A stretch of 64,000 nucleotides of DNA from an uncultured Spirochaetaceae bacterium (GTDB lineage Bacteria; Spirochaetota; Spirochaetia; Sphaerochaetales; Sphaerochaetaceae). This document shows, piece after piece, positions 32,929-62,798 of the stretch (positions within the stretch are counted from its first letter, which is position 1; every line of letters begins with the position of its first letter). The notes under the pieces were generated by a model that was not told the DNA's origin, did not search any database, and saw only the letters and a program-made list of their open reading frames with translations. The translations under genes were made by a program, and so were the position numbers. Location of the stretch: the NCBI GenBank assembly GCA_944389025.1, contig CALXKU010000005.1, positions 62,001 to 126,000 on the forward strand. The letters run 5' to 3'.

Positions 32929-34827
32929 TCAGATCTTCACGCCCTTAGATATCCTGCCGTACACCTTCCTCTTGGAGGCCGACACCTTCTTCGCCGCGGC
33001 CCTCCTGCGCTCCTCCACGTCATCCCAGTCGCTGTCGTTGAATGCGTCGAACCTGCGCTCGAAGTACACGGCGTAGTTGTAGACCCTTGTGTCGAGGGCC
33101 TCGTTCCTGTCCCTCGTCTTCTCCCATGTGAGCACCTTGGTCTTCTTGTCGTAGACGAGCTCCTCGGCGGTGAGCTGCTGGTAGAACTCCTCGGTGAGGT
33201 TGTTGGGGAAGAATGCCACGTACTGCCTGGACTGCTCCTCGTTGTCCTCCTTCGCAAGGTCCTTGTACACCATGCTCTTTATCCTGTCTACGGGCGTGTC
33301 GTAGTAGACGAGGCCCTTCTTGTCCCTCCTCTGAGGCATCGCAGTCTCGACGTTGTGCTTGTTGTCGCCCCTTATGAGCATGAAGTTCGGATCTCCGAGC
33401 TGGAGGTACAGGGCGTCGACGGTCTTGGTGTTGTACGACCTGTCGCAGGCGTTCCCTGCGGAGGGGAGCAGTATGCCGTCCTCCCTCTCCCACCTGCCGT
33501 TGAGGATGAGCTCCTCGTACATCTTCCAGCAGGAGGCCTCCGTGTCGCTCGTCTCCTCGCCCTGACCGCATGCCATCACGATATGGTCGAGTACTATGTT
33601 CCTGTTGCGCTTGCCCCACCCCATCACCGTCGTCTCGAGCCTGTTCTTCTGGACGTCGGTGCCTGTCGTCACGACGGACACCCATGCCGGGACCTTCATT
33701 CCGACCTCGAACTCCGACCTGAGCGCACGCCTGTAAAGCACCTCCCAGGAAGGCGTCTCCTGTGCGTTCTTGTACTGGCGTACGAGCACCGTGTTGTAGA
33801 AGGCCGTCATCTTCGCCGTCCTCTCCACCTCGTCCACCGTGTTGACGGCATCGAGGTGCTCCTGCGCTATGGACTTCCAGCTCAGCCATCCGAGCGGGAC
33901 GTAGAACGATGGGAGGATGTACCCCTCCCTCCCTTCTGCAGAGTGCGTGTTCGTGGCCTTCCATGCGGCCCCGTTCCTGGACTTGAGGAAGAACGACTTG
34001 TCGGCCTCCTCGATCCTTCCGTGGCAGAGGGGGCATTCGAACCATGCGTCCGTCACCGCCTTCCCCGCCTCGTTCGTATCGTAGTGGAAGTTCTCGAACT
34101 CCAGCGTCATGAGGCCTTTGCATCTGGGGCACGGGACATGGTACTTCTTCATGGTCGAGTTCTGCATGACGTCGATGATGTGGGAGTGCGTGTTCTTGGG
34201 CGTGCTCGACACTATGAACTTCCTCGAGTTCTCGAATGTGTTCTGCCTCTTCTTGAGCTGCGTTATCGGGCTTCCCTCCCCTTCGACGTTCGGAGGGAGC
34301 GCGTCCGACTCGTCCACGATGACCACGGCGGAAGAGTACCCCCTGAGGTTGTTCGCCCTGTTTGCGGCTACGAACCTTATGTTCCCCCCTGGGAACTGCT
34401 TCTCGTTGAGGGTGTCCCCCGTGCCCTTCTGCCCCTTTCCGAGCAGGTTCTGGATCGGCGGGTTTGCGGAGAGGAAGGGGTTGAACTTGTGCTTCACGAA
34501 GAGCTTGAGCTCGCCCTCGTCGGAGAATGCGAAGGCCTGCGGCCTCGGGAAGGCCGCGATGTAGTACGCCATTATGATCTGCTCCATCAGCGTCTTGCCG
34601 CACTGGGATCCGAACATGAGGTATATCTCCTTCGTCGGACTGGCGGGGGATGCCTCCTCGAGTATCTCCTTCTGGTAAGGCGCCCTCTCGGGGTTGTAAA
34701 GCCCCGGCTCCGCCGTGTCGGAGGGGAGGAATATCCTCTTCCTGGCCCACTCCGTTATGGTCCACCTCCTCGGAGGCCTGAGCAGGTCCGCAAGGTAATT
34801 GACGATGTAACCCGATATCCTGGCCAA
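32929..34827 (-). CDS. phage terminase large subunit, GpA family
   Basis: A 632-residue packaging ATPase/nuclease of the lambda GpA type. The N-terminal domain has the P-loop variant MFGSQCGKT, a Walker B VVIVDESDA and coupling motif SSTPKNT. A zinc-binding pair (CPRCKG and CPLCHG) follows, and the C-terminal nuclease has GTDVQKNRLE with the first metal aspartate. Translation seems to begin at TTG 34827, two bases after the small-subunit stop, with GGAGG further upstream. It is transcribed away from the other structural genes, which is unusual for a lambda-type module. Confidence 0.92.
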   Translation of the reverse strand: MARISGYIVNYLADLLRPPRRWTITEWARKRIFLPSDTAEPGLYNPERAPYQKEILEEASPASPTKEIYLMFGSQCGKTLMEQIIMAYYIAAFPRPQAFAFSDEGELKLFVKHKFNPFLSANPPIQNLLGKGQKGTGDTLNEKQFPGGNIRFVAANRANNLRGYSSAVVIVDESDALPPNVEGEGSPITQLKKRQNTFENSRKFIVSSTPKNTHSHIIDVMQNSTMKKYHVPCPRCKGLMTLEFENFHYDTNEAGKAVTDAWFECPLCHGRIEEADKSFFLKSRNGAAWKATNTHSAEGREGYILPSFYVPLGWLSWKSIAQEHLDAVNTVDEVERTAKMTAFYNTVLVRQYKNAQETPSWEVLYRRALRSEFEVGMKVPAWVSVVTTGTDVQKNRLETTVMGWGKRNRNIVLDHIVMACGQGEETSDTEASCWKMYEELILNGRWEREDGILLPSAGNACDRSYNTKTVDALYLQLGDPNFMLIRGDNKHNVETAMPQRRDKKGLVYYDTPVDRIKSMVYKDLAKEDNEEQSRQYVAFFPNNLTEEFYQQLTAEELVYDKKTKVLTWEKTRDRNEALDTRVYNYAVYFERRFDAFNDSDWDDVEERRRAAAKKVSASKRKVYGRISKGVKI

Positions 34828-34828
34828 G

Positions 34829-35683
34829 CTACTGAGAACCCTCCTCTTCTTCCTCTTCCTCGCCCAGAGCCTCCCTCACCGACATCTCGAGCGTGTGTAT
34901 GATCCCTGTGACCTCGTCCTTCAGCTCCTCCTTGAGGTTGGACAATTTCTGTCCATCCACCTTCACCCCGCCCAGCCTCTCGATGTACGAGGCTATCCTG
35001 ACGAGGAACTTGTCTGGCACGGTCGAGAGCGAGTTGACGAGGGGCGTGGCCAGCTCACGGAGCGTGTAGTCCACATCCTCCTTGGGGACGAGGAGCCCGG
35101 CCTCCTTGAGGAACTGCTGGCGGTATATCAGGAGCCTGCTCTTCTTTATCGCCTCGTCCTTGTCCAGGAGGTGCGTGCCGTTGGTCCTGTTGTACGCCCA
35201 GTCGTCCGCCTCCTCATCCCATATCCAGCAGTCCGAGAAGTCGTCTGCGTTGTAGTCCAGCGCCGCCACCCTGCTCCTCGAGGCCTTCATCACTATGTCG
35301 TCTATCTCATCGACCCTCTCACGGGGGACCTTCTCCTTACCTATCTTCGCCTCGGGCTCGACGAACTCGAACCCCTTTCCGGAGACGGTGGCGCCTTTCT
35401 TCTTGATCTTCGATATGTCGGGGTATCCTCCGCCGTCCGCCTCCTTCCTGGTGCGCCTTCGCCCGTTGGCCTTGCTCTTCTTCAGATGCTCCTTGTACCA
35501 CGGGCCCCATTTGTCGACATCTATGTAGACGCCGCCGTCTATCTCGGAGGTTTCGATCTTGCCGGACTTGACCATGTAGCTGACGGCCTGCCATGAGACG
35601 CCCATCTGCCGGGCGAACTCGTTCTTGCTCACATAGAGCACGCCGCCGCGCCTAACCCTTTCTTTTTTCCTTTTTGTAGCCAT
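34829..35683 (-). CDS. phage terminase small subunit (Nu1-like)
   Basis: A 284-residue DNA-binding terminase subunit. After a basic start the segment YVSKNEFARQMGVSWQAVSY is a winged-helix/HTH recognition unit as in Nu1. A central region ends in SRLLIYRQQFLKEAGLLVPKEDV, conserved in phage DNA-packaging Nu1 relatives, and the C-terminus is glutamate-rich. Nu1 proteins bind cos and recruit the large subunit. The start at 35683 is set by GGGAGG. It directly precedes the large subunit gene. Confidence 0.82.
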   Translation of the reverse strand: MATKRKKERVRRGGVLYVSKNEFARQMGVSWQAVSYMVKSGKIETSEIDGGVYIDVDKWGPWYKEHLKKSKANGRRRTRKEADGGGYPDISKIKKKGATVSGKGFEFVEPEAKIGKEKVPRERVDEIDDIVMKASRSRVAALDYNADDFSDCWIWDEEADDWAYNRTNGTHLLDKDEAIKKSRLLIYRQQFLKEAGLLVPKEDVDYTLRELATPLVNSLSTVPDKFLVRIASYIERLGGVKVDGQKLSNLKEELKDEVTGIIHTLEMSVREALGEEEEEEEGSQ

Positions 35684-35894
35684 ATGAGGCCTCCCTCTCG
35701 ATGACATACTCGCAGTCGGGGGTCGTAATGGTCACCTCGTCGTCGAAGTCCAGCCCTGTGAGCGTGGAGTTGGAGATCTTGCAGCCTTTCCTGCGCAGAT
35801 GGCGGTACAGGGATGCGATGGACTTGAAGTGCTCCACCTCGGTCCTCCCGCCTTTTGTGGTCGATAGCATCACGGCGATTCCATATTCCTTCAT
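35652..35894 (-). CDS. small phage protein, 80 aa
   Basis: I do not recognise this protein. It starts MKEYGIAVMLSTTKGGRTEVEHFKSIASLYRHLRRKG with a basic helix, then strands (DEVTITTPDCEYVIE) and a basic end. AAGGAGGT lies before ATG 35894. Its 3' end overlaps terS by 32 bases, making it the first gene of the minus-strand packaging operon. A small regulator or DNA-binding role is possible but unsupported. Confidence 0.7.
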   Translation of the reverse strand: MKEYGIAVMLSTTKGGRTEVEHFKSIASLYRHLRRKGCKISNSTLTGLDFDDEVTITTPDCEYVIEREASYGYKKEKRKG

Positions 35895-35937: not shown

Positions 35938-36035
35938 CTCCGTTTCAATCCTTTTCCCTCCGTTTTCCTCCCATTTAATCCGATTCACTCCGTTTCAATC
36001 CGATACGCTCCGTTTCAATCCGATACGCTCCGACG
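35938..36035 (+). repeat. phased CTCCGTTTCAATCC repeats between divergent phage operons
   Basis: CTCCG units begin at 35938, 35958, 35988, 36008 and 36028, spacings 20, 30, 20 and 20, all multiples of ten. The units at 35988 and 36008 are identical 20-mers (CTCCGTTTCAATCCGATACG). The last overlaps the -35 position of the gpW promoter. The reverse strand of each TTTCAA gives TTGAAA, a -35-like box for the opposite operon. A related pair lies at 57550-57577. Confidence 0.75.
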
Positions 36036-47675: not shown

Positions 47676-50600
47676 ATGAACTACGGCTTGAAATACGAGA
47701 TATCCCCGAACAATTCATTCTGGCTCGATGTGTCCGGCATCATAAATTCGAAGAACACGGTCATTACGGCAAGCCTCTGCACCAACGAGTTCAAATCCGC
47801 AGTGAATACGCTCACCTTCACCCTCACCGGCAATGTGAGCGTATCGGGCAGTGCCATGAGGGAGAGCGTGATAAACATGCTCATGGAGGCCCTTGAGGAA
47901 GGCTCTGTCGCCTATGTGAGGCTCAGCAGGAATGATACGGCCATCTTTACAGGCATAATCGACCTCTCATCATTCTCCGTGGCCTCCACCAAGGTGGAGG
48001 GGGACTTCTCGATATCATGCAGGGACTTATCGGCCCTCCACCTCGATGATGTCATCGACAAGCATCTCTTCTATGAGGAGAGGAAGGTCTCCGAAGTCGT
48101 ATCCATGCTTCTTTCCGAAGCGGGGTATTCCGCAGGAAAGAACGAGATGGCGGATGCCGACGATTACGAGATTCCCGCATTCGTTGTCGACCCCGATGAG
48201 GGTTCGGATACATACAGGGATGTGATAGACACACTCCTCTTCGAAGCCGGAGGCTATACGGTATCTGCGAACAACGAAGGAGTGATGGATATAATCAAGA
48301 TTCCTTCCACTCCTCCAGAGGAGAGGCCAGAGGGCATCGACTATGCAGTCTCATCAGGTCTTTCCTCCAAGTCCTCGATGCTTGATAACGATGGAGTGAA
48401 GCTTGAATGGTCCACGCTTGGGGAGACGGATGAGAACCAGACCGTATATGTCGATTCCTCCATCTCAAGGAGCGTGGATGATGAAGGGAATGTGGTGGGG
48501 CTTGAAATCCCCGCTCAGGGTTATTTCCCCGAAGATGGAGACATAACCCCTTCCTATCAGGAGTTTGATGCGAAGCTCCTCGACAGGGAATACAACACGG
48601 GAGTATCGAGGAAGCAGAACAAGGACCTTACGATAATCTGCGTGCGTGATGTCAAGGCCGAGATAATCGCAGCCGATGTCAACGGCTACACAGTTGACAA
48701 CGATCAGGCATGGGAATACCCCGTGCTTCCATCCCTTGGCATGGAGAAGAACCCTGCGATATGGCCTCTCAAGGCATGGTATCTCCTTAGAAACAAATAC
48801 GGTTCAGTCCTTAACCTCCAGCAGTTCGTACTCCATGGAAGGGTGCTCTACAGGAACAAGGTGTTTTTTTCCACAGTCCCTGCCGCGGCAAAGAACCCTG
48901 AGGAGTATACAAGCACATACATATTCACTCAGGAGCATGCGGAAAGATTCGCTAAATTCTACTGGCACTTCAGGAAGTATTCGAGGGTTGTGAACACATG
49001 GACCGAATACGAGTACAGCGCGAGGAAGGAAGGCGATATCGTCACAATAAACCACAAGGGCACGAGCACAGGTCAGGCGGCTGTGATAGTTCAGAGGTCG
49101 ATCACTTTCGAAGCAGGAAGGACGAAGACCGAATTCACGGCACTGAGCATAGGTGCTTTCGCACAGTATGAGGTGAAGAGCTGGGGTTCCTCCCCGAACT
49201 ACAACCTCGATAAGCCTGCAGACCCTCTGATGCCGAGACGGCAGTATACCCTGTTCCCCTCCCCCAATGTCGAAGACCTCTTTACGACAGCTATCATCTA
49301 TTCCGATGATGATGGGAACTCATGGTTTCTCATAGATGACGCCGCAGTGATCTCCGAGTCAGTGACCGATGCCGACTGGCAGAAGGACATGCCGGAGTAC
49401 GTCCCTGACGGCTACTACATATTCTGCAGGGAGTGGAACTACGAGACGGGCAAATGGGACTACTACAGGATGACGGGTGAGGTGGGTTCTCCTGCCCGTG
49501 GCTTCACAGTCACATCGAACCCTGCCACCTACTATAATTCGAGGCGGAGGAAAGGATCCCTGACAATCGAGATAGAGGTATCCTTGCTGAACCTCTCCCA
49601 GGGTGTGGTGATTGAATATATCCTCAACACCCTCGGGGTAAGCATAAGCGGCAATGTGGTGACGATTCCCGAAGGTGTCTATCCCTCTTCCATTTCCGTC
49701 GATGTCATAGTAACCGACCTTGAAACATCATACGGCCCGGCCACGAAGAACATTACGATAATGGGACAGGATGCCGAGGACAGCAGACCGCTATACATAG
49801 GCCCCTTTCCTGCAGATCCAAACCCGGATGCCTTCTCCTACAATTTCGCCGAGGGGGATTTCTACTGGAACACGAACACGCTCCTTGCAATGCGTTATTC
49901 CATGAACGAAGAGGGGGAGCTCCATTGGCGTATTGCGGAGAATGGCGATTCCAACTATTCGGAGATCATGGGAGCCGTAACCGCCGAAGCATTCTCCAAC
50001 ATCGAACCGGGAAGCACGTCCATGGCACAGTTCGGTTATTTCCAGAACATCCTCGCCGAGTACATCCGTGCCGACATGATAGAGACCATGAGCCTCACCC
50101 TCAGGAACGGAGGCTCGATCCGCAGTGACGGATACAACAAGGGGGACATCAACCTTGCAAGCACCAAGACCGGATTCTACCTGGACTACTACGGATACAG
50201 CGAATTCCAGGATGTGAGGATAAGGAACCTCGAGGCCACAGGAAGCTTCAGCGCCGATGCACTGAGGACTATAAACAACATCCCTCTCATCTCATACGAA
50301 CAGGTGCTTCCTCAGTACCAGGAGGAATGGAAGGAATGCAGCGCCGCAGAGGCGACGGACGCTGTGGTGACCGACAACGCCGTAGGGGAGATCGAGGGCA
50401 TTGTGAACATCGGGAACATATATCTCGGAATCACAAGGGATGATTTTGCCTATTATACGTATTTCCGCTCCGTCGACGGAGGCAACACCTGGGAGGTTAT
50501 GAACCTTGAGTACATGCTCGACCAGTTTGTATGTGGCATCAAAGTCACAGAAGACAGATTTGTCGCTTTGGTATCTGACAGGAACGGTGCATATCATGTC

Positions 50601-51815
50601 GCCGTTTCCGAAGATGGGGTGAGTTGGAGTTATTATGCATGCCCTTCGAACTACACCTGCTACGACATCGCATACGGCTCAGGGAAGTTCGTTGTCACGG
50701 CAAGATACAATGTCCATTCATCTACGATAGAAACAAAGCTTGGCATCCTCTCATCCGAGAACCTTTCATCATGGAGTTTTAAAGAGACATCAAGCGGCAG
50801 CATAGAACATCCTGTAGCCCCCTACTCTCATATCGCTTATGGAGCAGGAGGATTTGTCGTGGTCGGGGATGACGGCCTGTATAGATGCAATTCGGACACG
50901 CTTGATTCCTGGACCAAGTGCTATACGTTCTCTGTCCCCGCCCCGTCTTACAGTGAGATATACTTCATCCATACGGACAGATATCTTGTAGTGTTCAATT
51001 CAAATGGCAATGGATACGTACTCACATCAAGCGATGGTGCGTCATGGGGCATATCAACCCTGCTCATAGATGGAATCCTTGCATGGCCGACAGCCGTACA
51101 TGAGGGAAGCACATACTACTATGCTATCTCGGACTGTGCGGCAGGAACGGAACACAGAAAGGTCTTTCTTAGTACGAACACGGTCTCATGGACGCCGAGG
51201 ACTATTTCGAAGAACTCAAAGTCGGCTGCATATATGCAGAATGGTGTATATCTTGCCTTCTCCAACGCTGCAATGGTCTTCTTCGGCTCCCTGGCCCTTC
51301 CGGAAGGAATCTATGCATTCTTCTCATCCATAAGGCCCAAGCTGGACACATCGAAGGTCGACATGCCTCTGGCAGAGCCTCTTGTAAACGCAAGGGCTGT
51401 GACAGGAGGGCTTGAATATAACGGGATGACATACTCCATCGAACAGATGAGATGCAGCGACAATGAGATTGCTTTCAGGGTTGCAGGGAGACAGGACGAG
51501 ATACTGTTTGTCGCCACAGGAGCATACCCTCCGTCGATAAAGGTGAAGAATCTTCGAATCGAACAGATCTCGGGAGAGCTCCAGACAGGAAACATGTATC
51601 CGATGGATGATGCAATAGAGACGAACATAGGAAGTGCCGAGCATCCGTATGAGAACGCAACAATCAAACACATAAATAGCGAGACGTTGGAAGGTGATTT
51701 GACGGGAGACGTGGAAGGAGATGTCAAAGGTGATGTTACAGGGAACCTTACCGGGAACGTCAATTCTTTGGCGGATAGGAACTACTATGCCGTATGGGGG
51801 GCGGTTTTCAACTGA
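47676..51815 (+). CDS. large tail tip/fibre protein with Asp-box beta-propeller-like repeats
   Basis: A 1379-residue structural protein. The first 400 residues resemble a siphophage tail hub (VRLSRNDTAIFTGIIDLSSF, SISCRDLSALHLDDVIDK). A middle region carries FSADALRT-type fibre joints. Residues from about 920 to 1180 contain repeated S-x-D-G-x-x-W motifs (SVDGGNTWEV, SEDGVSWSYY, SSDGASWGIS) spaced like the Asp-boxes of sialidase-like propellers, which may bind glycans. The C-terminus has G-D-[LV] repeats at 1340-1362. It follows the tape measure, where tail-tip genes normally sit. Confidence 0.75.
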   Translation: MNYGLKYEISPNNSFWLDVSGIINSKNTVITASLCTNEFKSAVNTLTFTLTGNVSVSGSAMRESVINMLMEALEEGSVAYVRLSRNDTAIFTGIIDLSSFSVASTKVEGDFSISCRDLSALHLDDVIDKHLFYEERKVSEVVSMLLSEAGYSAGKNEMADADDYEIPAFVVDPDEGSDTYRDVIDTLLFEAGGYTVSANNEGVMDIIKIPSTPPEERPEGIDYAVSSGLSSKSSMLDNDGVKLEWSTLGETDENQTVYVDSSISRSVDDEGNVVGLEIPAQGYFPEDGDITPSYQEFDAKLLDREYNTGVSRKQNKDLTIICVRDVKAEIIAADVNGYTVDNDQAWEYPVLPSLGMEKNPAIWPLKAWYLLRNKYGSVLNLQQFVLHGRVLYRNKVFFSTVPAAAKNPEEYTSTYIFTQEHAERFAKFYWHFRKYSRVVNTWTEYEYSARKEGDIVTINHKGTSTGQAAVIVQRSITFEAGRTKTEFTALSIGAFAQYEVKSWGSSPNYNLDKPADPLMPRRQYTLFPSPNVEDLFTTAIIYSDDDGNSWFLIDDAAVISESVTDADWQKDMPEYVPDGYYIFCREWNYETGKWDYYRMTGEVGSPARGFTVTSNPATYYNSRRRKGSLTIEIEVSLLNLSQGVVIEYILNTLGVSISGNVVTIPEGVYPSSISVDVIVTDLETSYGPATKNITIMGQDAEDSRPLYIGPFPADPNPDAFSYNFAEGDFYWNTNTLLAMRYSMNEEGELHWRIAENGDSNYSEIMGAVTAEAFSNIEPGSTSMAQFGYFQNILAEYIRADMIETMSLTLRNGGSIRSDGYNKGDINLASTKTGFYLDYYGYSEFQDVRIRNLEATGSFSADALRTINNIPLISYEQVLPQYQEEWKECSAAEATDAVVTDNAVGEIEGIVNIGNIYLGITRDDFAYYTYFRSVDGGNTWEVMNLEYMLDQFVCGIKVTEDRFVALVSDRNGAYHVAVSEDGVSWSYYACPSNYTCYDIAYGSGKFVVTARYNVHSSTIETKLGILSSENLSSWSFKETSSGSIEHPVAPYSHIAYGAGGFVVVGDDGLYRCNSDTLDSWTKCYTFSVPAPSYSEIYFIHTDRYLVVFNSNGNGYVLTSSDGASWGISTLLIDGILAWPTAVHEGSTYYYAISDCAAGTEHRKVFLSTNTVSWTPRTISKNSKSAAYMQNGVYLAFSNAAMVFFGSLALPEGIYAFFSSIRPKLDTSKVDMPLAEPLVNARAVTGGLEYNGMTYSIEQMRCSDNEIAFRVAGRQDEILFVATGAYPPSIKVKNLRIEQISGELQTGNMYPMDDAIETNIGSAEHPYENATIKHINSETLEGDLTGDVEGDVKGDVTGNLTGNVNSLADRNYYAVWGAVFN

Positions 51816-53910: not shown

Positions 53911-54177
53911 ATGGCTGATACGGAATGGAAGAGGGAGAGGAAGACGACGGACAGGGGGGACGGCAGATATCTCCTTGAATGGATAGATGAGAACGGAGAC
54001 ACGCTCTGCTCCATGGAGATCATGATAGAGGACGGGGATGTGGAGAAGACCATAGACACCAACTACAGGCTCATGAAGAAGCGGAACGAGTCCCTTTTCG
54101 TGAAGCCCCTTACCGAGGAGGAGATTGCGATGATGATGGCAGAGATGGAAGATGACATGGAGGAAGCGAATGGCTAA
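53911..54177 (+). CDS. small acidic phage protein, 88 aa
   Basis: An 88-residue protein, MADTEWKRERKTTDRGDGRY onward, with an acidic methionine-rich end (MMMAEMEDDMEEANG). GAGGAGG precedes ATG 53911. Its stop overlaps the start of the DGR target gene by eight bases, so the two are probably translated together. Function is unknown; a fibre assembly helper for the variable protein is a reasonable guess. Confidence 0.6.
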   Translation: MADTEWKRERKTTDRGDGRYLLEWIDENGDTLCSMEIMIEDGDVEKTIDTNYRLMKKRNESLFVKPLTEEEIAMMMAEMEDDMEEANG

Positions 54178-55501
54178 GAATCTTGACTACATTGAAAAGA
54201 GGGTGCTGGAGCTTGAGAGCGAAGTCACCGAAATACATCTGAGGGGCACGGACCTTGTTCCTGCTTCGAAGGCCGACTATCTCAGGCTTGATGAGATAAG
54301 AAAGGAGTTTGAGGACATCACGGACGGTGAGAACACGCTCATAGGCAACAACGCAGGACAGTTCGAACCGGCATACACGATAGAACCGAAGGAGGGTGAG
54401 CAGTTCCTCAACTACTGGTCGGACGAGCTCACGGGAGCACCTACGTCGAAGGCAGGAGATAAGCAGGTGCTCCCCTGCTTCGCAAGGAACAACCACGCAA
54501 GGAAGAAGTTCCATGTGAACAAGTACAAGATGAGTGCGGTGTACACCAACAGCGGAACCAGCCACACGAACTACCCCGTAGGACTCTACAACATGAGTCC
54601 CGCACACTCTAGTGGCGGCTTCAGCGTATCCTATGACGGTGTGGTGACGAAGATGGATCAGGTCAACTCATCCACCTTCCCCACCTACATGCCTTCCTCG
54701 ATGCAGGACTGGTGCGGAAAGAAGCACCTGATCACATGGGACGAATATGCATACCTCTGCCTTCTTGCGAAGAAGTACGCATTCGAACCTCTTGGAGACA
54801 CGAACCAGTGTGCAGACACCAAAGGTGTGATGGGAGAGCCTGCCGACTACAGGCAGTTTGAGAACGACATATACAAGGTCAGGATGGCGAGGAACGGTTC
54901 AGGGCCCAACTACTGGAGGCACAACGGCAAGTATACCGGCATCGCATCCCTTGTCGGAGGATGCAGGACGATGCTCTCGGGGCTCAAGGTCAAGAGCGGA
55001 ATAATCCAGATCATAGATTTCACCACTACCGACGGGGTACTCTCAGCCGCAGACCTCAAGGACAGCGGAACGCTCTGGAAGGCCATAAGCGCACCGGACG
55101 GCTCACTCATAGACCCATCCACGGTCGACGGCTCCACGGTCAAGGCATACTGCCTTGACTTCCCTACCACACCGACGGCAAACAACAGTACGGTAACGAT
55201 GATCTCCGATGAGATCCTCATAAGGGATGGTGGATTCTACGGTCAGGTTCAGGCCAAGAACGTTGCGATAAAGGAAGGCCTTGCATCGCACTACCTCATA
55301 GAGCTCGCAGGATACATGCCTTTCAAGAACGGCGGTCTTGCAGGCTATCAGTATCTGAGGAACGCTGAGAACTCAAGCTTCGTGGCCCTTGTTGGCGGTG
55401 GCTGGAGCAGTGGCGGTATTGCCGGCCTTCGTTCCGTGTACGGCACTAGCGGGTTCGGCAATGCGGGCAGCAACGTTGGGGCTCTCCTCGCTTCCGACTA
55501 A
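54170..55501 (+). CDS. DGR target: tail protein with C-terminal variable repeat
   Basis: A 443-residue protein starting MAKNLDYIEKRVLELESEVTE at ATG 54170 after GGAGGAAG; an in-frame ATG at 54152 is less likely. The N-terminus is coiled coil. The remainder looks like a C-type-lectin/FGE-type receptor domain (MQDWCGKKHLITWDEYAYLC, then GGLAGYQYLRNAENSSF). The last 41 residues (about 403-443) are encoded by the variable repeat, ending one base before the stop. Phage DGRs change receptor-binding proteins in this way (BPP-1 Mtd), so this is probably the host-recognition protein. The template version encodes AAC/AAT codons at the variable positions. Confidence 0.88.
   Translation: MAKNLDYIEKRVLELESEVTEIHLRGTDLVPASKADYLRLDEIRKEFEDITDGENTLIGNNAGQFEPAYTIEPKEGEQFLNYWSDELTGAPTSKAGDKQVLPCFARNNHARKKFHVNKYKMSAVYTNSGTSHTNYPVGLYNMSPAHSSGGFSVSYDGVVTKMDQVNSSTFPTYMPSSMQDWCGKKHLITWDEYAYLCLLAKKYAFEPLGDTNQCADTKGVMGEPADYRQFENDIYKVRMARNGSGPNYWRHNGKYTGIASLVGGCRTMLSGLKVKSGIIQIIDFTTTDGVLSAADLKDSGTLWKAISAPDGSLIDPSTVDGSTVKAYCLDFPTTPTANNSTVTMISDEILIRDGGFYGQVQAKNVAIKEGLASHYLIELAGYMPFKNGGLAGYQYLRNAENSSFVALVGGGWSSGGIAGLRSVYGTSGFGNAGSNVGALLASD
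55376..55497 (+). repeat. DGR variable repeat (VR)
   Basis: This 122-bp segment matches the template at 56163-56284 without gaps (constant offset 787). Sixteen positions differ and every one is an adenine in the template; 93 non-adenine template positions are unchanged. It ends in GC-rich TTGGGGCTCTCCTCG before the last A positions and stop codon, the usual place of the initiation-of-mutagenic-homing end. Confidence 0.97.
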
Positions 55502-55588
55502 AATCTCGGAATCTAAAAACTGACGCACTTTCCTCTCTCATCACCAGTGCCTGGGAAAGGAAGGAGAGTACGGAAAGGATGGTGAAAA

Positions 55589-56080
55589 ATGATTGTTGAA
55601 AAGAACCCTGACGAGAAGGACGGCTTCCAGCTGCTGCAGAAGTCCAACGAGTTCTCGACATGGACGGACGACCTCTACAAGAAAGGCAGGGTGTCCATAA
55701 GGATCAGGGAGAAGTATATCAGGCCTCTGGACGATCTCGTGGAGGGCTTCTGCATCAAGATCTACGATGCGAACAAGCTGTATAACTCCAAGCCTCCGGA
55801 GATAGGGGAAGGCATGGACAAGTACACCTCCGAAAAACTATATCGTCAGACAAGGAAGGATGCCATGACGCTGTGCTATCAGGCACGTAACGACCTGAAG
55901 ATGATAGCCACAAGGTGGAAGAGGATCCTCGGCGAGGAGAATGCGAAAACGGGCTATCCCGTCATCAAGGGGATAGTCCCCGAACTGAGCAGGAAGAGAC
56001 GCTTCGTATTCGAAAGGATAGCGGAGCTCGACAGGATGCTTTCCGCATGGTATTCATGGATGAACAGGAAGGCATCATAG
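55589..56080 (+). CDS. avd: Avd-like DGR accessory protein
   Basis: A 163-residue protein between the variable and template repeats, where Avd genes lie. Sequence is mostly helical with many basic residues (SRKRRFVFERIAEL, DAMTLCYQARNDLKMIATRWKRIL), suited to a four- or five-helix bundle that binds nucleic acid and reverse transcriptase. It is longer than the roughly 125-residue Bordetella Avd. The identity is inferred from position, size and helix content. Confidence 0.75.
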   Translation: MIVEKNPDEKDGFQLLQKSNEFSTWTDDLYKKGRVSIRIREKYIRPLDDLVEGFCIKIYDANKLYNSKPPEIGEGMDKYTSEKLYRQTRKDAMTLCYQARNDLKMIATRWKRILGEENAKTGYPVIKGIVPELSRKRRFVFERIAELDRMLSAWYSWMNRKAS

Positions 56081-56092
56081 GAGGATATCACA

Positions 56093-56117
56093 CCCCGTGG
56101 TGATTCGTATCACGGGG
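56093..56117 (+). promoter_or_regulatory. hairpin just before the DGR template repeat
   Basis: CCCCGTG (56093-56099) pairs with CACGGGG (56111-56117) around 11 bases. It lies between the avd stop and the template repeat; it could define the 5' end of the template RNA or attenuate transcription. Confidence 0.5.
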
Positions 56118-56162
56118 ACGGCATGAGGTATGTTTTGCGGCCCCTGCGGTTTGGTGGTTATC

Positions 56163-56284
56163 AGCTTCGTGGCCCTTGTTGGCGGTAACTGGAACAATGG
56201 CGGTAATGCCGGCCTTCGTTACGTGAACGGCAATAACGGGTTCGGCAATGCGAACAACAACATTGGGGCTCTCCTCGATTCAAA
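56163..56284 (+). repeat. DGR template repeat (TR)
   Basis: The invariant 122-bp template, containing 29 adenines of which most are in AAC or AAT codon-like doublets (AACTGGAACAATGGCGGTAA is typical). The stretch 56081-56387 has no gene but this; an open frame (56130-56378) across it is a by-product of matching the target frame. The flanking RNA likely primes or templates cDNA made by the reverse transcriptase gene immediately downstream. Confidence 0.97.
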
Positions 56285-56387
56285 GAGAGCATGGGATGTC
56301 TCGTCTGGCGATTCATCCCCTCTCTTGGAAGGGCCGAGTGTCGGAATAGAAGGACAGTGCCATATCCGAACACCATGAGGTGTCGGG

Positions 56388-57530
56388 GTGTGGCGCGGAA
56401 CCAAGAGAAACATGATGGAGACAGGGAACAGAGAGAAGGATCCTCTCTTCGAGGAGTTCGTAAGTTTCGACAACATATATGCAGGTACGATGGAGGTTGC
56501 GAAAGGCAAATGGCGCAAGCCCGAATGGGTGCGCTGGTATCTGGATCTGGAGGTCAACACGATCAACCTTCAGAACAGGCTCATATGGGACATGTGGAGG
56601 CCTCATGCCACCGTGGACTTCTACGTGATGGAACCTAAGAAGAGGCCTGTCGCAAGACCACACATAGAGGACAGGATAGTAGGACACTCCCTCATGCGTG
56701 TGATACTCCCCTACCTTGAAAGACGCTCATCGGCACAGTCGTATGCATGCCGCACGGGAAAGGGAGCCTACAATGCGGTGCTCGAATGGCAGAGGATAAT
56801 ACGCAGTGCGATAGGACGGTGGGGTTTCGAGTGGTATGTCATATCCATCGATTTCGCACACGACTACCAGACGATATCCCTCCCCGGACTCAAGGAGCTC
56901 TACTCCCGTGTGATACCATCGAAAAGGCTCTGCAACATACTCGACATGAAGATCGACTCCTATATAGCGATGCAGAACGAGCCACGCATATTCAAACATG
57001 AGGGACTGGCCCTCGGCAACATCGAGAACCAGCATCTTGCGAACCTCAAGTCAGGGCTTGTCGACTTCTTCGTAACGGACACTCTGGGACTCGGAAGGAT
57101 GTATGTACGCTACATGGACGACATCAGGATAGCAGTGCACACGAAGGAGGATGCAGTCAGGATCCTCTCGGCGATCGAGGATCTGATTGAGGAGAAGCTC
57201 AACCAGAAGGTGTCGGAGAAGAAGACGGGATACAGGAAGTTCAAAGGCAAGGACGACCTCTGCGGATACGTCGTATGCCCTCATCATCTTGAGGCACAGA
57301 ATACCAAGCTCAGGCACAGGTTGAACAGGCTGAGGAGGAACCATGGAATATGGGAGGACGGAACCTGCCCGACGGACAAGTATGTTGCAAGCTTCTGCAA
57401 TGTCCTGGACTATCTTGAGAAGACCGACAGCGACCATCCATATGTAAGGGAGTGCGTGGATGAAGCCATTGCCAAGGGTATCAGCAACAGAGGAATCAGA
57501 AGATATCTGAAACGCTGTCATCCATGTTGA
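56388..57530 (+). CDS. DGR reverse transcriptase
   Basis: A 380-residue reverse transcriptase of the retron/DGR type that copies the template RNA with adenine errors. It has KKRPVARPHIEDRIV, YACRTGKG (118-125), the motif A aspartate D155 in SIDFAHDYQTI, GLALGNIENQHLANL (206-220) and the catalytic YMDD at 242-245. DGR enzymes usually have SQ in the GN-x-x-SQ motif; here it is N-Q. Start is GTG 56388 with TGAGG upstream; an ATG at 56412 is an alternative. It closes the DGR cassette and the long late operon. Confidence 0.93.
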   Translation: MWRGTKRNMMETGNREKDPLFEEFVSFDNIYAGTMEVAKGKWRKPEWVRWYLDLEVNTINLQNRLIWDMWRPHATVDFYVMEPKKRPVARPHIEDRIVGHSLMRVILPYLERRSSAQSYACRTGKGAYNAVLEWQRIIRSAIGRWGFEWYVISIDFAHDYQTISLPGLKELYSRVIPSKRLCNILDMKIDSYIAMQNEPRIFKHEGLALGNIENQHLANLKSGLVDFFVTDTLGLGRMYVRYMDDIRIAVHTKEDAVRILSAIEDLIEEKLNQKVSEKKTGYRKFKGKDDLCGYVVCPHHLEAQNTKLRHRLNRLRRNHGIWEDGTCPTDKYVASFCNVLDYLEKTDSDHPYVRECVDEAIAKGISNRGIRRYLKRCHPC

Positions 57531-57549: not shown

Positions 57550-57577
57550 CTCCCTTTCATTCCGTTTCAATCCGACA
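57550..57577 (+). repeat. second copy of the phage promoter-associated repeat
   Basis: CTCCC (57550) and TTCCG (57560) are ten bases apart; the latter begins TTCCGTTTCAATCCGACATA, sharing CCGTTTCAATCCGA with the units at 35988 and 36008. The end overlaps the -35 hexamer CCGACA. Confidence 0.7.
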
Positions 57578-62264: not shown

Positions 62265-62798
62265 TTAGTAGCAGTAAAAATAATATCCGTTGTATTCGCA
62301 AACATCCGTTAAAAGCAGATCACGCCCGTAAGCTTCATAGTCAAAATAGTTTGCGATATGTTCAGGAACGCCGGAAAGTAAACCCAGATTATCAACAAGA
62401 TCGCAAGCGAAATCATAGTTAGAAATAAAATAACCTATAAATCTTTCGTTAAATATATCTTCTATATCTTCAATGCTTGCCCCCTCGTCGATGTCGAAAG
62501 TCTCGGCGTATGCCTCCAGGGCGTCGGGATCAATGGAGGAACTGGAATAAAGTTTGCAGAAATTAAAAGCTTCCTCGCTGAATTCATTTTCACAATATAG
62601 GCTTTCTGGAAGATTTTCATAATCTTGAAACATCAATTCCGGATTGTGTTCATCCTTGTGAATTGCTTTGCATGCGTCTATAAAATCGTCGTAAGTTTCA
62701 TATTCTGACGGGGTAACCCATCCGCCGGCAATAGATCCGCTTGCATATTTTCCAAAAGTTCCAACATAAACCCTAATTTCTTTCCTTTCTGTATACAT
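62265..62798 (-). CDS. ardA: antirestriction protein ArdA
   Basis: A 177-residue acidic protein of the ArdA family, which mimics about 42 bp of bent B-DNA and blocks type I restriction-modification enzymes. Family segments are RVYVGTFGKYASGSIAGGWV at the start, FIDACKAIHKDEHNPELMFQDYENLP, and near the end VPEHIANYFDYEAYGRDLLLTDVCEYNGYYF. GGAGAAAAATAAC precedes the ATG. It protects an incoming phage, plasmid or conjugative element, so the right part of the window belongs to a mobile element. Confidence 0.92.
   Translation of the reverse strand: MYTERKEIRVYVGTFGKYASGSIAGGWVTPSEYETYDDFIDACKAIHKDEHNPELMFQDYENLPESLYCENEFSEEAFNFCKLYSSSSIDPDALEAYAETFDIDEGASIEDIEDIFNERFIGYFISNYDFACDLVDNLGLLSGVPEHIANYFDYEAYGRDLLLTDVCEYNGYYFYCY

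Follow-up and report, generated by a model that had tools for sequence, protein, structure and literature searches.

We are highly confident that the stretch of DNA analyzed here (64,000 nucleotides, hereafter the window) carries a complete, most likely functional diversity-generating retroelement (DGR) in a lambda-type prophage, built on the plan of the Bordetella phage BPP-1 element: a target gene with its VR, an avd gene, a TR and a reverse transcriptase (RT) gene. Its membership among DGRs rests on two observations, namely a pair of repeats that differ only at template adenines and the placement of the RT within the DGR clade. The SQ motif of the RT and the GRNA hairpin after the VR are absent, and neither is required of all DGRs. 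A preliminary description of this DNA had proposed a complete DGR in a prophage, and the adenine-only repeats, the RT clade and a target protein resembling TaqVP support that proposal. The kind of system is already known; the parts useful to the specialist are an RNA stem, a missing target hairpin and the comparison of two prophages in one genome. The features of the window are as follows.

47676..51815, plus strand: long tail protein, encoded after the tape measure gene and ahead of the target gene, with 69-70% DNA identity to the second prophage of the genome (contig C4)
54170..55501, plus strand: DGR target protein, 443 aa, with a C-terminal C-type-lectin-like domain (phmmer, PHROG, homologues at other DGR loci)
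55376..55490, plus strand: VR core, with 13 of 25 template adenines changed and 0 of 90 other positions
55478..55490, plus strand: IMH-like invariant G/C-rich end of the VR, GGGGCTCTCCTCG, the same in VR and TR
55589..56080, plus strand: probable diverged Avd-like gene, 163 aa (located between VR and TR, with a weak profile match to other Avds)
56163..56277, plus strand: TR core, the sole TR for its sole VR in the genome
56278..56285, plus strand: IMH* end of the TR, ATTCAAAG, a fixed difference from VR CTTCCGAC
56279..56330, plus strand: predicted RNA hairpin 1, beginning at the TR end (folds with z -2.7)
56357..56396, plus strand: conserved RNA hairpin 2 between TR and RT, with an 11-bp outer stem (covariation in six cassettes)
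56412..57530, plus strand: DGR reverse transcriptase (RVT_1, PHROG 1423, 8ub7, tree); the longest ORF begins at 56388

The repeat pair and its target protein

VR (55376-55497) and TR (56163-56284) align without gaps over 122 bp. All 16 differences fall at TR adenines, which number 29, and none at the 93 other positions; 10 are A to G, 4 are A to C and 2 are A to T. Given 16 randomly placed differences over the full 122 bp, such an adenine-only pattern has P=1.6e-12. The preliminary description had reported this gapless alignment with differences confined to template adenines, and both points were reproduced, while its reading of all 16 differences as adenine mutagenesis stands for the 13 in the core only. 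The last three, at 55491, 55495 and 55496 (TR GATTCAAAG, VR GCTTCCGAC), recur identically in the second cassette on C4, and the first of them is also present in the related genome G003. On account of this recurrence we regard these terminal differences as fixed IMH/IMH* differences and not as products of mutagenesis. Within the mutagenized core of 115 bp, the contrast between adenine and non-adenine positions gives P=1.1e-10, and this adenine-only pattern is the signature of a DGR. The invariant end of the VR and the differing end of the TR have the arrangement of the IMH and IMH* of DGRs, and by analogy with BPP-1 the GGGGCTCTCCTCG end may serve in homing.

Each of the 25 core adenines occupies the first or second position of its codon. 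They define 14 mutable codons, 11 of which are AAC or AAT, and a stop codon cannot be reached from any of them; the TR itself is stop-free and Asn-rich. The genome holds one TR and one VR of this cassette's sequence, the C4 TR likewise has a single VR, and no additional target of either TR was found elsewhere in the genome. A search of IMG/VR with the TR/VR pattern gave no match, and therefore no strain-level VR alleles were found. VR differences at non-adenine positions in relatives, named beforehand as an observation that would speak against a DGR, were sought as far as the data allow, and the comparison did not contradict the DGR reading.

As first described, the VR encodes the C-terminal 41 residues of the target protein. 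This protein matches 5vf4 (TaqVP) over residues 241-438, VR region included (phmmer, E 4.5e-15), as well as PHROG 2889 (E 2.2e-31), and homologues are encoded in other DGR loci of the class. TaqVP, the variable protein of a prophage DGR, has a C-type-lectin fold (PMC6328139), and homology across the whole CLec domain suggests a fold of the same type here. The AlphaFold model of the target (pLDDT 32) gave no usable fold, and a search of IMG/VR with the protein returned no match. The target probably acts as a receptor-binding protein of the tail. When the two cassettes are compared, 54170 is favored as the start of the target and 56412 as that of the RT (372 aa), so that in both genes the start is most likely not the first start codon of the ORF.

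If the cassette works as that of BPP-1 does, the TR would be transcribed together with the structured spacer on its 3' side, and the RT and Avd would copy the TR RNA into cDNA with misincorporation opposite adenines. This cDNA would then replace the VR, beginning at the common GGGGCTCTCCTCG end and using upstream homology. Since the cDNA would replace the VR, the last 41 residues of the C-type-lectin tail protein would be re-drawn, with 14 variable core codons allowing about 5e14 proteins and no stops, and the re-drawn tip would probably change the surface bound by the phage.

The enzymes, the prophage and a second cassette

The RT matches RVT_1 (E 1.2e-9) and the phage RT family PHROG 1423 (E 3e-59), and its top match among PDB structures is 8ub7 (E 2.5e-15), the BPP-1 DGR RT. 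In a tree of 62 rows it groups with BPP-1 and other DGR RTs, apart from 11 group-II-like RTs, at 100/100 support, and its neighbors are the DGR RTs of its own family. The preliminary call of a YMDD RT of the DGR kind is thus borne out, and the clustering with group II introns that would have spoken against it did not appear. A group II intron or retron RT is ruled out by the same placement. The active site conforms to YxDD (RYMDDIRI). Motif 4 reads LGNIENQ, and the usual DGR motif (I/V/L)GxxxSQ is absent; motif A reads IDFAHDYQT, and both motifs are unlike those of the other DGR RTs aligned, except that the RT of the C4 cassette shares them. About 90% of DGRs conserve the SQ motif; the rare variant NQ has been recorded among DGRs in which adenine exchange persists (PMC3521204), and SQ is therefore not a strict requirement. 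In another DGR of the family, that of G003, the RT (L026, 15778-16983, minus strand) has an insertion of about 50-60 residues before motif A.

The preliminary description had noted an Avd-sized gene in the expected place. Its position between VR and TR stands, and its identity as a diverged Avd is probable. The only clear relative of this protein is encoded in the C4 prophage, and the match to other Avds is a weak profile match (hhalign, two-sequence search, E 2e-4 for the C4 copy). Its predicted structure is a four-helix bundle; the alignment of the model with BPP-1 Avd 4dwl (VIA-align, Z 8.0) scores below many unrelated bundles and so does not discriminate, and a Foldseek search with the model gave nothing at E 0.001.

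The label of a lambda-type prophage agrees with the head genes, which encode a GpA terminase, a lambda-family portal, an S49 protease and capsid E; a tape measure protein of 1345 aa is encoded after them. The label of a spirochaete also stands, since the host shares its class with G216, whose DGR protein is the Treponema denticola TvpA (2y3c; all 294 residues, E 2e-206). The large and small terminase subunits lie on the minus strand (32929-35707) and point away from the portal gene and every head and tail gene beyond it, and the interval between terminase and portal holds an array of a 10-base periodic repeat (35938-36033; TCCGTTTCAA/TCCGATACGC). One further copy of this repeat lies directly past the RT (57551-57575), and the only near matches elsewhere in the genome are at C1:70703 and C4:62526, the latter just upstream of the portal-protease region of the C4 prophage. 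These repeats are possibly operator sites. Near the right end of the prophage is an ArdA antirestriction gene (62265-62798; PF07275, E 1.9e-28).

From 37 to 64 kb the window shares about 69% identity with the prophage on contig C4, which has its own diverged DGR, with target, Avd, TR and RT in the same order. In both cassettes VR and TR are identical at every non-adenine core position. The two TRs differ at 28 non-adenine sites. At 26 of these each VR agrees with the TR of its own cassette; the remaining two sites are 5'-terminal and fall beyond the C4 repeat. Between the cassettes, the RT, Avd and target genes are saturated at synonymous sites (pS 0.76-0.83) with little nonsynonymous change (pN 0.11-0.22), which indicates that all three proteins have been kept functional. 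That each VR equals its own TR at non-adenine sites despite this saturation is indirect evidence that in both cassettes the TR has recently overwritten the VR, and thus that homing has acted in both lineages. Such a pattern is what repeated copying from TR to VR predicts. Two related prophages that each diversify a tail protein of their own can thus reside in a single genome.

As an alternative, the 3' end of the tail gene might simply have been duplicated beside an RT of another class, and chance or A-biased mutation would then account for the adenine pattern. In its favor, the Pfam and NCBIfam models label the RT only as a general or group-II-like RT. Yet a chance pattern would have to reach P of about 1e-10, place every core adenine in the first two codon positions and recur with the same arrangement in a second prophage, and the RT falls outside the group-II-like set with full support; this explanation has a negligible probability, and a simple duplication beside a non-DGR RT is refuted by the tree and the adenine-only pattern. 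It is harder to dismiss that the DGR was active until recently and is now inactive in this prophage, through decay of the prophage or through the altered RT motifs. Motifs A and 4 are indeed absent from the other DGR RTs aligned, and with one genome per species in the comparison, current VR variation lies out of view. Against this, the RT, Avd and target frames are intact in both cassettes and under purifying selection across saturated synonymous sites, the unusual motifs are kept in both RTs, and neither core has accumulated any non-adenine VR/TR difference. We consider recent inactivation improbable and favor a functional DGR.

Hairpins beside the repeats

The spacers between TR and RT fold better than shuffled sequences in the window (z -4.2) and in C4 (z -3.4). 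Hairpin 2 is conserved in the six cassettes of this RT branch: in a stem alignment made from sequence alone, 98.5% of cells are paired, 9 of the 11 pairs show two-sided changes, and none of 500 shuffles scores as high. Matches to a covariance model of this hairpin are limited to the six cassettes among 50 sources and, within the family, to the same five of 139 genomes, and an Rfam scan of 53-60 kb of the window returned nothing. For hairpin 1, fold prediction gives a similar structure in C4, G003, G196 and G331 (five of six cassettes with the window), and none clearly in G360. In the G331 locus (L080, 5300-5430) a TR-like sequence and the RNA stem are present, and no VR could be aligned in the neighboring target gene.

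Hairpin 2 ends about 15 bases ahead of the probable RT start at 56412, and it is conceivable, if somewhat doubtful, that the stem controls translation of the RT and is not part of the template RNA. It nonetheless occupies the region that corresponds to the structured spacer of BPP-1, which is reportedly needed there for cDNA synthesis, and hairpin 1 is predicted to begin at the TR end. Roles in the template RNA and in translational control may both hold. The covarying stem is a testable structural element for template RNA recognition outside the BPP-1 model.

The target site of the BPP-1 type includes a GC-rich hairpin of 7-10 bp with a GRNA loop, located 4-34 bp after the VR (PMC3240598). No such hairpin follows the VR in any of the five cassettes with a located VR (window, C4, G003, G196 and G360). 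The same scan detects it in BPP-1, L029, L033 and G080, in the last two about 40 bp beyond the VR end used. Where its VR is located, this RT branch lacks the target hairpin that BPP-1 needs. We tentatively suggest, as one possibility short of the favored expectation, that this branch of spirochaete prophage DGRs recognizes its target without a DNA hairpin after the VR and relies instead on a branch-specific structured template RNA with two hairpins between TR and RT, accompanied by a diverged Avd and, in this species, by an RT whose motifs A and 4 have changed.

Distribution and comparison with known systems

RTs of this kind were found at E 1e-15 or lower in 31 of 395 genomes of the class, spread over 20 of 133 genera. 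Of 33 RT loci read, 26 have a TR/VR pair with adenine-biased differences, as counted by a simple scan without a null model, and several of the loci without a pair are truncated at contig ends. At L027 and L028 one TR serves two VRs in two target genes, and at L090 and L092 the TR/VR pair lies on the strand opposite the RT gene. A literature search linking DGRs with Sphaerochaeta found nothing in the papers searched. T. denticola DGRs have been described (PMC4891356), one survey counted a single spirochaete element among 155 DGRs (0.6%; PMC3521204), and the spirochaete DGRs of earlier surveys came mainly from T. denticola (PMC4891356; PMC3521204). The suggestion that the combination in a lambda-type spirochaete prophage may be undescribed did not hold in the sense of rarity, because DGRs are widespread in the class and several adjoin homologous target proteins. 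In this class of spirochaetes they are commonplace and no curiosity of T. denticola.

The closest plan is that of the BPP-1 DGR (mtd, avd, TR, brt), which agrees with the window in gene order and orientation, in adenine-only TR/VR differences, in RT homology (8ub7) and in a tail target with a C-terminal VR ending in a G/C-rich 3' stretch. The two differ in that the target of the window resembles TaqVP and not Mtd by sequence, its Avd is highly diverged, its RT has NQ in place of SQ in motif 4, and the GRNA hairpin after the VR is found by the same scan in BPP-1 and not in the window. The DGR of a Thermus aquaticus prophage (5VF4) shares the prophage setting (PMC6328139) and a homologous C-type-lectin variable protein including the VR region, whereas its host and accessory genes differ. 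The T. denticola DGR belongs to the same bacterial class as the host of the window and has the same adenine-specific TR/VR relationship, but no sequence homology was detected between TvpA and the target of the window, and the T. denticola-type RT (L105) lies in a different branch of the DGR tree. Close relatives are the prophage DGRs of G003, G196, G360 and G331 in the same family, which share the RT branch (100/100), homologous targets and the RNA stem, while their RTs are only about a third identical to that of the window and retain the SQ motif.
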